DNA of 64,000 nt from Prillingera fragicola (taxonomy: Eukaryota > Basidiomycota > Tremellomycetes > Trichosporonales > Trichosporonaceae): the NCBI GenBank assembly GCA_002335605.1, contig BEDY01000002.1, positions 2,567,021-2,631,020 on the forward strand. The letters run 5' to 3'. Position numbers and translations under genes: made by a program. The notes under the pieces are model-generated. The model saw only the letters and a program-made list of their open reading frames with translations. It was not told the DNA's origin and did no database searches. This document shows, in pieces, positions 57,335 through 62,280 of the stretch (positions within the stretch are counted from its first letter, which is position 1; every line of letters begins with the position of its first letter).

Positions 57335-59073
57335 ATGGCCTGGTCCTCATTCGGGATCCCCTTTGCGCTCTTCACAGTGCCAGCACTGCATGTGCTGATT
57401 GCGCCTTACACCAAGGTCGAAGAGAGCTTTACACTGCATGCCGCCCACGACTTTCTGAGGTACGGCCTGTCGCCAAGCACGCTTCAGCTTGTAAGTTGGG
57501 AGACGCGCGACATGACTGACATGACACAGTGGGACCACAGGACGTTCCCTGGCGCCGTTCCCCGTTCATTTGTTCCTCCTCTTCTACTCGGCGCGGCGTC
57601 TTGGCCCCTGGCTGTTCTCGGCTCACAGACTGGCGTGTGGGCGTCATCAGTTGACATCCAGGTTGTCGGTGAGTTTCCAAGACTGTCAACCGCAGCTAAC
57701 GTCAGTTCGCCTCACTCTAGTGATTGTCTTTGCATCCTGCTACACTCATCTTGCGCGTACTATCAAGCGTTTGTACAGCGGCGCGACTGCCGGGTGGTTT
57801 GTTGTACTCTCGCTCGCCCAGTTTCACATCCCTTACTATGCTGGCCGCACGCTGCCCAACTTTATGGCCCTGCCGTTCGTCGTCCTCTCCATCTCGCTTA
57901 TTTTGCGTGGCAAAGTTTGGACGGGTATCGCACTCTTGACTGCTATTGCGACCGTCGTTCGTCTTGAGCTCGCACTGTTCCTCCTCCCCACCACCCTTGT
58001 TCTTGTTCTCCAGCGCCGTCTCACCGTTGGCGCTGCTTTCACTGCCGGTCTCATCGGTGGGCTCGGTAGTCTTGGTAAGTTTTGTATATTGAGCTTGGCT
58101 AACAGCAGCCATTGCTGCACCCATCGACTACACCCTCTGGGCACCCACTCTCCCCCATCCTTCGCTCAAGGGTTTTACCCGCACCTCGGCGCTCTGGCCT
58201 GAGCTCTCGGCTGCCTTGTTCAACGTCGTCGACGGCCACAGCGATGACTGGGGGGTCATGCCCAAGCACTACTACGCCGGTGCTCTTGCCAAGATGCTCT
58301 TTGGCGCTTTCCCTCTGCTTGGCCTCGGCCTTGTCTGGGCTTTTGCTCAGTTCACCGGAGTGATCAGTAGTGGTCCCTTTGCAAACAAAACTCAGCAGCG
58401 CACCGTCGGCGACATTGCGCGTCTTTTTGGTCCCGGTGTCGCCGCACTCATCGGCATGCTGAGCTCTGTGGGTCACAAGGAGTGGCGCTTTATCGTGTAC
58501 GCTCTGCCCGTCCTCAATATTCTCGCCGCCTCCACTGCTGCCGCTCTGTGGTACATTCCTCAGAGGGCTTTCCGATACCTCTTCCGCGTTGGCCTACTTG
58601 GGCTCGTGGGCTTGACCCTCGCGTTCACTCTCTTCTCAACCTTTGTCAGCACATTCAACTATCCCGGTGGCGATGTCTGGATTGCCCTCGAGCAGATGCG
58701 CCTTCCGAGCGGCACGCGCATCCACTTTCCCTCGTACCCTCTTCAGACCGGCGCTTCGCTGTTCACTTTCAAGAATGCCGCCTGGCCACACTCTCTCGCT
58801 TTTCCCGACAAGGCTCCCAATGACCCCACCTGGGTCTATTCGAAGAATGAGTCGCAGGTCCTTCTTTCGCCTGCTGGCGCGTGGGACGCCGAGTTTGACG
58901 TCCTGGTGACCCAGGCTTGGAAAGAGTTTACAACCACTACGCGCACGGGACAGACCAAGCCTCTGTGGCGTATGGCTGGTGAGATTGAGGGTCTCGAGGG
59001 CGTGAGCATGCACGGCCCAGTACCGTCCATCAAGCGTGGCCGCAAGCTTGCCATCCTCACGCGCGTACCCTAA
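57335..59073 (+). CDS. ALG12: Alpha-1,6-mannosyltransferase ALG12
   Basis: Dolichyl-P-Man:Man7GlcNAc2-PP-dolichol alpha-1,6-mannosyltransferase (GT22) of the ER membrane; it adds the eighth mannose to the lipid-linked N-glycan precursor. There are four exons, 57335-57490, 57530-57668, 57706-58074 and 58109-59073, giving 542 residues. Family motifs are APYTKVEESFTLHAAHDFL near residue 25, WDHRTFPGAVPRSF near 55, AGRTLPNFMALP, VRLELALFLLP, and the GT22 loop SVGHKEWRFIVYALPVLN near 330, then HFNYPGG in the form TFNYPGG. Many hydrophobic helices are visible. The N-terminus MAWSSFGIPFALF starts at a caccATGg. The HKEWRFI motif separates it from ALG9 (usually HKEERF). Confidence 0.94.
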
Positions 59074-59155
59074 AGCTACAAGCATAGAAATGTCACATGT
59101 GCATAACGATTCCTCACAACTACTGACAACTAACACTCGCTACCAATTTACAACA

Positions 59156-61082
59156 CTACGCATTCTTGCCAATCGCAAGACGCTGCTCGAGCTGGTTGGG
59201 ACCCTGGAAGTTCTTGCGTCCGTCAATGAGCCAAGTGGCGGCGCACATGATGAGTACGATGAAAAACACCACAATGGCGTAGTTCATTGACGAACCGGTC
59301 GGGACGGGGATGGCTGGCGGGAACACAAAGATGACCGAGGTGCAGACCGCGAACAGAATGGCGACTGCGTTGACGTAGCGGCGCCACTTGCCGAGGGACC
59401 AGATGCGGCTGTGGCCAGCGTACGCCTCTTCGCCGCGGATGAAGATGATGATGACTGTCGTCAGCGAGGCCGCGAAGTGGAAGACTTACTAGGGGTAACG
59501 TAACTGATTTGCAGGAAGAGGATTGCGCCGGACAGAATGGCGTTGAGCGCGACAGACGATCCGAGGTTGATAAGACCAAAGATGATGGCCCACACAGTGA
59601 CGAACACGATGGACCAGATGGGCGATTTGAGCGACGGGTGGACGTCGACAAAGTAGCGTGAGATGGCACCCAGGCCGCGGTCACGCGCAAAGCTGAGGAA
59701 CATGCGAGAGCTGATCGTGTTGACGCACTGGAGACAGACAGTCATGGCGACAAGGTTGAACATGAGCAGGCACATTGCTCCTGCGCGGGACTCGGTTGCT
59801 TGGTAATAGATCTCCAAGAGGGCGCCAGAGGAAGCGTTGATGACGCCGTCCCAGTCGCGCAGGCAAAAGAGGAGGACGACCATGAAGATCCAGGCCGTGA
59901 CAGTGCCCATCACAATGGCCAGTACCATGACCCTGGGAGCATTGATGGAGGGCTTGGGCATCTCTTCGATCAGGTGGGACGCCGAGTCAAATGCGGTGAG
60001 GCCAAGCGTGCTCTGTAGGAGACCGAGGACAAAGGCCATGCCGTCGGGCCAGCCCGTCTCATTGGTGAGGGTGCCAAAGACCGACTTGGCCGGCTGATAC
60101 TTTCCCGACGAGCAGGCTAGCAGCGTAATGCACACGACGACAATGCCGACGATGGAGAACATGCCGTTGGCGCGGTCAATGGCCGGGAGGATGCGGACGC
60201 CAAAGACATTGACCAGGAAGACGACGACGAGGAAGGCCGCGTAGATCACAAAGACGAGCCAGTTGGCAATCTCAAAGTCTGGGTGCCAGAATGTGATGAT
60301 GCTGAGGGTAAGCTAGCGAACAAGCGCTGTACCCACCCAAGCATGTAACTGCAAGCCAGCGAGGCAGCAGCACCAAGCAGCGTAGTCCAGCCAGCGCATG
60401 CCATCCATCCAACAAAGAAGGCGATACCACGCTTATACTTTGGCGTTGCCAAGCAGTCTGAGTGGGCGTCAGCCACCACCTGGGGTATCGCTCTCGGATC
60501 GCACTCACAGGAAAAGTCGTACTGACCACCCGAGAGAGGGAAGACGTGACAAATCTCAGCTCTGGTCGTCAGCACCCGACTCCCGGGCATAAACTCACAA
60601 GGAGACACCCATCGCCAACGTCCCGAAAGCTGACACTAGCAAGCCCCACACCATTGCGACACTGCCGCCCGAAGTGAGGACGATTTGCAGCCTGCACCGT
60701 TAGCCATGTCGTGTTGCATGAGTACTCACGAAGCAGCCCTGTATGGTTGGGTGGTGGTCAGCTCGGAAAGCAGTGATGTCTCGCGCGGCGGCAGGGTCTG
60801 GCTCTGGGCTAACCCGAAGGAGGACGGCAGGGGCACTCACATTGCTGGGCTGGTCAGTCACTGCATGATCGTCAAAGAGGGAGGGAGCTCACCAGTCCAC
60901 GAGTTGAGGAGTGAGAAGGCTAGGCCGAGAGTAGCGAGAAAGGTAAAGTTGCGCTCGAGAGCGACTTCGCCATGGACGCCGTCTTCGACAAGGACGACGG
61001 TGGCCTCGCCGTGGTCCTTTTTCTCATCAAAGGAAGCTCGGTAGGGGGTGCTTGAGACTCGTTCTACGGACGAGGACGTCAT
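59156..61082 (-). CDS. APC-family amine permease (choline/GABA permease type)
   Basis: Plasma-membrane transporter with about twelve helices, of the fungal amino-acid/choline (HNM1) and GABA (UGA4) permease group. The first exon ends FSLLNSW-T. The conserved TM1 motif WTAMAASL then requires two micro-exons, 4 nt (60841-60844) and 9 nt (60730-60738), before LTSGGSVAMVWG. AEICHVFPLSGGQYDFS and KRGIAFFVGWMACAGWTTLLG come next, each after an intron. Later parts include FDSASHLIEEMPKPSINAPR (the E-E-M-P-x-P consensus of this family) and FARDRGLGAISRYF. The tail is cytosolic and short. The ATG at 61082 follows gac; an upstream ATG-like start is less likely. It converges on ALG12 with only 80 bp between stops. 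Substrate among choline, GABA and other amines is open. Confidence 0.88.
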
Positions 61083-62280
61083 GGTGGGTGTGAGTGCTGT
61101 TGGTGGGGATGGAGATGGGGGGCTGACATGAGAGCCAGACACAGTCTCTCTTTAACAGTGCTCGGCTGCTCGTATCAGTGAATCGGTGTTGCTTGCTTGG
61201 AGTAGTGTGCAATAATGGTGGATATCGTTCCGCATCTAGGCGTCTCGTGACCACTGACTGATCCTTCGCTTCCAATTACCTGGGACAAGAGGGAGGCGTA
61301 GTGGGCTTCCATTGACGAGGTATGCTGGCCAGATTATCCTTTCGTGCGCGCTGTGCTGCGAGTGAGTGACGAGAGAGAGGCCATTCCCCACGAGCCTCCA
61401 GATTGCATGACAGAAGCGCAAGGATGGGGAGGAGAAGAGTGGGCCTGGGAGAACTGGGATGAGCCGGTACAGGGTCATTCAGGAAACGCTGGATAATCTA
61501 CGGCATCGAGATGGCTCACGATAGCGAGCTGCACTGTAATCTCACACCGCCGCCCTGCCAGGCTCACGTCAGAGCTCGTCAGAGTTTAGCCTAAGGTTTG
61601 TCTACGCCGCCGCTCTTAATCCGGAGATATGGTCCATGCTTGTCACTCGTCACTTGACCTACTGCGTTGGATAGACAGATCTAGAGTTGGGCGTTATCTG
61701 CCGCAGATGGGCAGTGACAAGTAGACTCAGGTCTGGTCGCAGCTTTCAATATTCCTGGCGGCAACGCGGAGGTCCGCCAACAGGCGAGGGCTGCGTCCAT
61801 TTGCCGGCTATGGTCTCTCCTGGTTCGGGCTCTGGTTGTGTGCTGCATTGAACTGTACGGACATGCGGGGCACAATCTTTGCCATCGCCTAAGACAGAGT
61901 GAGCATGGGGGCAGGCTGACACGGCGGATGAACATGGTATGCTGGAAGTCGCCGATAGAGCGCACAAGCCGGATCAACTCTGTTGCGACTGGAGTGGACA
62001 AGCCAAGCCAAGGGTCTTGGCCGGTGCCCCCCACAACACCTGTTCCCCGGTGAGCATCCACCAATGCGCACCTGCGCACAACAGCTTGGCGCATGGTCCG
62101 GGTAGTCACTCGGCTCGGTTGCCTAATTCAGTCCGGTCTTGATCTCACTCACTCGCCACCCATGCTGGCCAGTGTCCGTTGTACGTAATCATTATCTGGT
62201 CCGGAAAGGTCTGTTCGAGTTGCCACGGTCAGGTGTATCATTCATTCATCCATTCTCCTCGTCTTATACCGTTAACCAAC
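61083..62280. other. Intergenic region
   Basis: No supported gene in 1.2 kb between divergent starts. Confidence 0.5.

Follow-up and report, generated by a model that had tools for sequence, protein, structure and literature searches.

Two very probable consecutive exons of 4 and 9 nucleotides in the gene model of a fungal permease, and their proposed splicing by intron definition

The permease gene described here, from Prillingera fragicola, raises the question of whether a coding frame can run through exons as short as 4 and 9 nt in succession and, if it does, how such exons would be recognised and how they came about. The original prediction, made within the 64,000-nt stretch of genomic DNA analysed here (the window), was that the signature W-T-A-M-x-A-S-L can be read only when CAAT (60844-60841) and GGCTGCTTC (60738-60730) are each spliced between introns. 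These coordinates are exact on the minus strand, each piece is indeed bordered by cag and gtgagt (gcccag and gtgagt around CAAT, atacag and gtgagt around GGCTGCTTC), and the proposed phases of 1, 2 and 2 are reproduced in our gene model, where the three introns measure 48, 102 and 38 nt. We consider it highly likely that two introns inserted into one exon of this permease gene have reduced parts of it to exons of 4 and 9 nt, which would be spliced via intron definition. The window gene (61082-59156, minus strand) has 8 exons and 7 introns, all GT-AG, and its product spans 526 codons closed by a TAG stop. Its features are given here against those of L042, a paralogue located on contig C7 of this genome.

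60893 to 61082, minus strand: exon 1, 190 nt, from the ATG to ...LNSWT plus base 1 of the following codon; aligned to exon 1 of the paralogue.
60845 to 60892, minus strand: intron 1, 48 nt, phase 1; position and phase are those of the paralogue's first intron.
60841 to 60844, minus strand: microexon 2, CAAT, 4 nt; finishes Ala64 and supplies bases 1-2 of Met65, where the paralogue has A-M.
60739 to 60840, minus strand: intron 2, 102 nt, phase 2, within the Met codon; the paralogue is without it.
60730 to 60738, minus strand: microexon 3, GGCTGCTTC, 9 nt; base 3 of Met65, Ala66, Ala67 and bases 1-2 of Ser68, where the paralogue reads M-S-A-S in a single exon.
60692 to 60729, minus strand: intron 3, 38 nt, phase 2, within the Ser codon; the paralogue is without it.
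60599 to 60691, minus strand: exon 4, 93 nt; base 3 of Ser68, then LQIVLTSGGSVAMVWG...
60562 to 60598, minus strand: intron 4, 37 nt, phase 2; common to the paralogue.
60509 to 60561, minus strand: exon 5, 53 nt.
60458 to 60508, minus strand: intron 5, 51 nt, phase 1; absent in the paralogue.
60337 to 60457, minus strand: exon 6, 121 nt.
60302 to 60336, minus strand: intron 6, 35 nt, phase 2; absent in the paralogue.
59490 to 60301, minus strand: exon 7, 812 nt.
59455 to 59489, minus strand: intron 7, 35 nt, phase 1; common to the paralogue.
59156 to 59454, minus strand: exon 8, 299 nt including the TAG stop.

None of the other six introns of the gene (35-51 nt) exceeds half the length of intron 2. 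A 12-nt inverted repeat (92%; 60658-60669 and 60787-60798) pairs intron 2 with exon 4; it may loop out microexon 3 together with intron 3, or it may reflect chance.

The window gene is an intron-rich, fungal-type permease gene, AA_permease_2/TIGR00907-like. Its product matches Pfam AA_permease_2 (PF13520) with 166.2 bits, against a gathering score of 27, over model positions 1-426 of 427, and NCBIfam TIGR00907 with 433.2 bits over positions 6-482 of 482. The latter score lies under the curated cut-off of 598.3, so the gene is related to the TIGR00907 subfamily, yet not filed there. The HNM1/UGA4-type label attached to it earlier would be in keeping with these matches. A PDB sequence search gave no match for the permease alone (E<=0.001) or for a two-row profile (E<=1), and helix 1 is therefore not placeable on a solved structure. 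A bacterial and archaeal scan with the two-sequence alignment of window gene and paralogue returned 44 pattern matches, of which 0 were confirmed.

Spliced through both microexons, the product reads N-S-W-T-A-M-A-A-S-L-Q-I. The paralogue L042, which is 54.5% identical to the window gene over 523 aligned positions, carries CC ATG TCC GCC TCC CTG in one exon directly after its first intron, encoding A-M-S-A-S-L, so that LNSWTAMSASL of the paralogue and LNSWTAMAASL of the window gene align without a gap. The two pieces have the makeup of microexons, as internal exons of no more than about 30 nt that lie between introns, and the introns on either side have GT-AG borders and contain a branch-like motif. 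Both pieces are needed, CAAT for the frame and both for the ungapped paralogue alignment: leaving out CAAT, or both microexons, leads to a stop about 20 codons downstream. Nowhere in the genome does the joined 13-mer of CAAT and GGCTGCTTC occur uninterrupted. The window has 19 minus-strand and 10 plus-strand occurrences of the pattern YAG-N1-12-GTGAGT. Three of those on the minus strand fall within 58,000-62,000: GGCTGCTTC, CAAT, and CCCAGCAAT, which is the CAAT donor read from the CCAG acceptor. Several features count against the model: the exonic bases ahead of the two microexon donors are AAT and TTC, unlike the usual donor context, in which AG precedes GT, and the length of intron 2, the sub-threshold TIGR00907 score and the small genome-wide surplus of 1-12 nt candidates given below weigh against it as well.

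If only CAAT were an exon and the 9-nt piece were skipped, the protein would read W-T-A-M-L-Q-I and be three residues shorter. The loss of GGCTGCTTC alone keeps the frame, and the TIGR03428 model scores this form marginally higher than the one with both microexons (87.5 against 85.2 bits, with 84.0 when all five residues are deleted, values by which the models are not separated). Against it, L042 carries the three residues, TIGR00907 falls by 10 bits (from 433.2 to 423.1, compared with 419.3 when the five residues are deleted), and the 9-mer has an acceptor and a donor of its own, with CTGAC in the preceding intron lying 19 nt from the AG. We regard this as improbable for the gene as a whole; a minor isoform that lacks the 9 nt, still in frame, may occur.

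It is also conceivable that a single 13-nt exon mends the frame through a different donor. Between the exon 1 donor and the exon 4 acceptor, 105 chains were enumerated with GT-AG introns no shorter than 30 nt and up to three internal exons, each of at most 60 nt; 19 of them are in frame without a stop, and three add five residues. Two of these three are single 13-nt exons, CCCAGCAATGTGA, which uses the CCAG acceptor, and GGCTGCTTCGTGA. Both are in frame, but their inserts, AQQCE and GLLRE, score only 4 and -1 (BLOSUM62) against the paralogue's AMSAS, compared with 18 for AMAAS from CAAT and GGCTGCTTC, the only chain that resembles the paralogue, and both bypass the GTGAGT donors in favour of GTGCCC or GTACTC.

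The choice of acceptor bears on the same reading. With branch sites predicted as matches to the CTNAC motif, the AG used is the first one at least 6 nt past the predicted branch adenine in 10/10 introns modelled across the window gene and L042, and it lies 6 to 19 nt after that adenine. Intron 1 has CTGAC as its predicted branch and AGs at +4 (CCAG, unused in our model) and at +9 (used), and intron 2 of L042 likewise skips an AG at +3. The CCAG needed by CCCAGCAATGTGA is thus nearer to its branch adenine than any AG used in the ten introns, and we judge a single 13-nt exon very improbable. Use of this acceptor, 5 nt upstream of the modelled one, had been named in the original prediction, for transcripts with no exon to restore the frame, among the findings that would refute it; it is disfavoured by its distance from the predicted branch adenine and by the frame shift that it would cause unless another exon were altered.

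One might also ask how readily a fit as good as AMAAS arises by chance. Chance tests allowed one or two microexons totalling 13 nt and did not require good donors (the real donors are both GTGAGT). Some five-residue chain was present in 1,307 of 3,000 dinucleotide shuffles, with 2 reaching a score of 14, a best of 16 and 0 reaching 18. From the window, 20,000 stretches of 201 nt were drawn at random, and the 69 that overlapped the microexon place were excluded; some chain was present in 11,582 of the remaining 19,931, with a score of 14 reached by 31, a best of 17 and 0 at 18. That the region belongs to a pseudogene with a frameshift, in which the microexons are fortuitous, would account for the broken frame seen without them, but is hardly credible given these tests, the open state of all remaining exons and the homology of the entire product to the permease model and L042. 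The reading of W-T-A-M-x-A-S-L through two microexons is backed by the ungapped paralogue, the frame, the chance tests and the branch-to-AG spacing, and the two tiny exons are very probably real as a gene model, confirmed at the level of sequence. We infer that CAAT and GGCTGCTTC are both spliced into the mRNA.

How might these exons have arisen? L042 has three introns, which match window-gene introns 1, 4 and 7 in position and phase, so within this pair only the window gene has introns 2, 3, 5 and 6. Four more paralogues (on C1, C3, C4 and C5) show a single open frame through the microexon point, where they are 23-32% identical; a further paralogue match, on C13, starts past this point, and the comparison therefore comprises L042 and these four, among which only L042 is close. 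Introns 2 and 3 are missing here in 5/5 paralogues aligned through the point, which makes gain in the window gene a simpler reading than loss in the paralogues, and as far as these alignments indicate the two introns are probably gains. Introner-like elements are recognised by near-identical intron copies elsewhere in the genome. A genome search with intron 2 at E<=10 returned no second copy (self-match only, with simple repeats and very common words skipped), and a recent introner-like copy was set aside on that ground. As to a possible origin by tandem duplication, intron 2 and exon 1 share two weak direct repeats (75% over 16 nt and 80% over 15 nt). In a stwintron, an inner intron breaks a splice element of an outer intron and leaves no exon between them; here, 4 and 9 coding nt stand between complete GT-AG introns, and the arrangement is not a stwintron.

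For the split itself, we propose that the exon for the end of presumed transmembrane helix 1, as we would place that helix, was divided by two intron insertions within the Met and Ser codons of W-T-A-M-A-A-S-L, and that exons of 4 and 9 nt would have been left behind. In fungi the established view is that splice sites pair across the intron, and this is the likely mode for introns as short as those of the window gene (35-102 nt). Each of the three short introns (48, 102 and 38 nt) would most likely be recognised as a separate unit, with GTGAGY as donor, CTNAC as branch site and, as acceptor, the first AG that lies no less than about 6 nt beyond the branch. Since recognition would proceed across the intron, exon length should hardly matter, and a 4-nt exon would need no exon recognition. 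An acceptor and a donor separated by only 4 nt could scarcely be bound at the same time, so stepwise removal seems likely, with the introns excised one by one. A more far-reaching proposal is that two introns, gained independently at points separated by 9 nt, made residues of helix 1 dependent on splicing, and that transport is switched on and off by regulated skipping of the 9-nt exon, which keeps the frame and removes Ala-Ala-Ser, in a genome whose housekeeping genes put up with exons of 3-11 nt; we offer it as speculation and think it unlikely.

Other ultra-short exons were sought across the 20.2-Mb genome with the pattern CTGAC-N3-14-CAG-Nx-GTGAGT and a reversed-pattern control. Matches against control numbered 53 vs 36 for x of 1-12, 62 vs 65 for x of 13-24 and 98 vs 58 for x of 25-36, with a few sites counted twice, such as two matches sharing one donor on C8. 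The excess at 1-12 nt is modest, about two thirds of the matches in that class being at control level, and at 13-24 nt the pattern gave no excess of candidates over the reversed control. Besides the pair reported here, 9 of the 53 contexts were read, eight of these chosen by eye, and 5/9 yielded a convincing conserved protein (L050, L059, L065 and L067 are not among these five). A cyclophilin gene in the window (7838-6946, minus strand) has a 3-nt exon, TGT, at 7407-7405 between two introns, and its product is ungapped there to the solved cyclophilin 1mzw. A malate dehydrogenase gene (L070, region of C3:390631-390657) has a 6-nt exon, GTATCG (GAGGGIGQPLSLL), in a piece that aligns ungapped to the solved enzyme 4wle, and a ubiquitin-conjugating enzyme gene (L073, region of C3:947983-948010) has an 8-nt exon, GTCTCGAT, which codes for Cys-Leu-Asp of GAICLDLLK, with the Cys codon split with the preceding exon, in a piece ungapped to 2ayv. 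The queries for these three structure matches were the microexon-containing forms only. Exons of 11 nt were seen at L061 (region of C2:1030435-1030464; RAACDACRKMKIKC), in what we take to be a Zn2Cys6-type protein, and at L053 (region of C1:2965836-2965865; MSYTIAGRAIKNEYIALGTIF), in a short and presumably ATP-synthase-subunit-like protein; both proteins were judged whole by eye.

Several fungal microexons have been published. Cryptococcus neoformans var. grubii is, like the window species, a basidiomycetous yeast whose genes are rich in short introns (the median is 55 nt for one class), and its RNA-Seq-based annotation has exons "as small as 1 bp" that are hard to detect automatically, although the accessible text reports no consecutive 4+9 nt pair in a permease (PMC3990503). 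In bglA of basidiomycetous yeasts, exons defined against cDNA are as short as 5 bp (Sirobasidium magnum) and 6 bp (Rhodotorula minuta); bglA differs from the window gene in family and in that its minimum is 5 rather than 4 nt (PMC9142197). Fusarium CYP621A carries a single-nucleotide exon supported by transcript reads, with the same candidate exon in 24 genes; as in the window gene, the microexon solves a phase mismatch and an intronless relative serves as a length marker, whereas the exon is 1 nt long and the gene is an ascomycete P450 (PMC12940212). Its authors term it the first single-nucleotide exon of a fungal gene (PMC12940212), yet 1-bp exons are mentioned in PMC3990503. The P450s of Phanerochaete chrysosporium contain microexons of 2-10 aa between short introns, the shortest exon being 6 bp; they share a basidiomycete host and microexons with the window gene, and differ in gene family (PMC1184071). 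Xlr2 of Trichoderma virens has a switch microexon that, like the pair described here, lies within a conserved domain and was overlooked by the gene model; it is longer, at 20 nt, and its inclusion depends on glucose (PMC11121469). Outside fungi, human RPS24 has several successive microexons within one gene, a likeness to the window gene, and these are alternatively spliced (PMC11162997, PMC12686416). In the accessible part of PMC8022950, microexons appear only as a mapping setting. Among titles and the opening lines of abstracts, a scope that leaves out most subscription journals, no published microexon in a fungal permease was found, nor this 4+9 nt pair.

With fungal exons of 1-6 nt published and further candidates in the same genome, the earlier description of a 4-nt exon as extreme is too strong, and the 4+9 nt pair illustrates well a kind already known, the fungal ultra-short exons, rather than a new one. 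Its consequences for annotation are direct: if a gene caller overlooks CAAT, the permease loses its frame, and if the 9-mer is overlooked, the protein comes out too short. The combination of a regular expression with homology reveals that other conserved genes of the same genome also have exons of 3-11 nt. Because a paralogue in that genome displays the uncut exon, the pair is also a clean natural test of minimum exon length under splicing across short introns.
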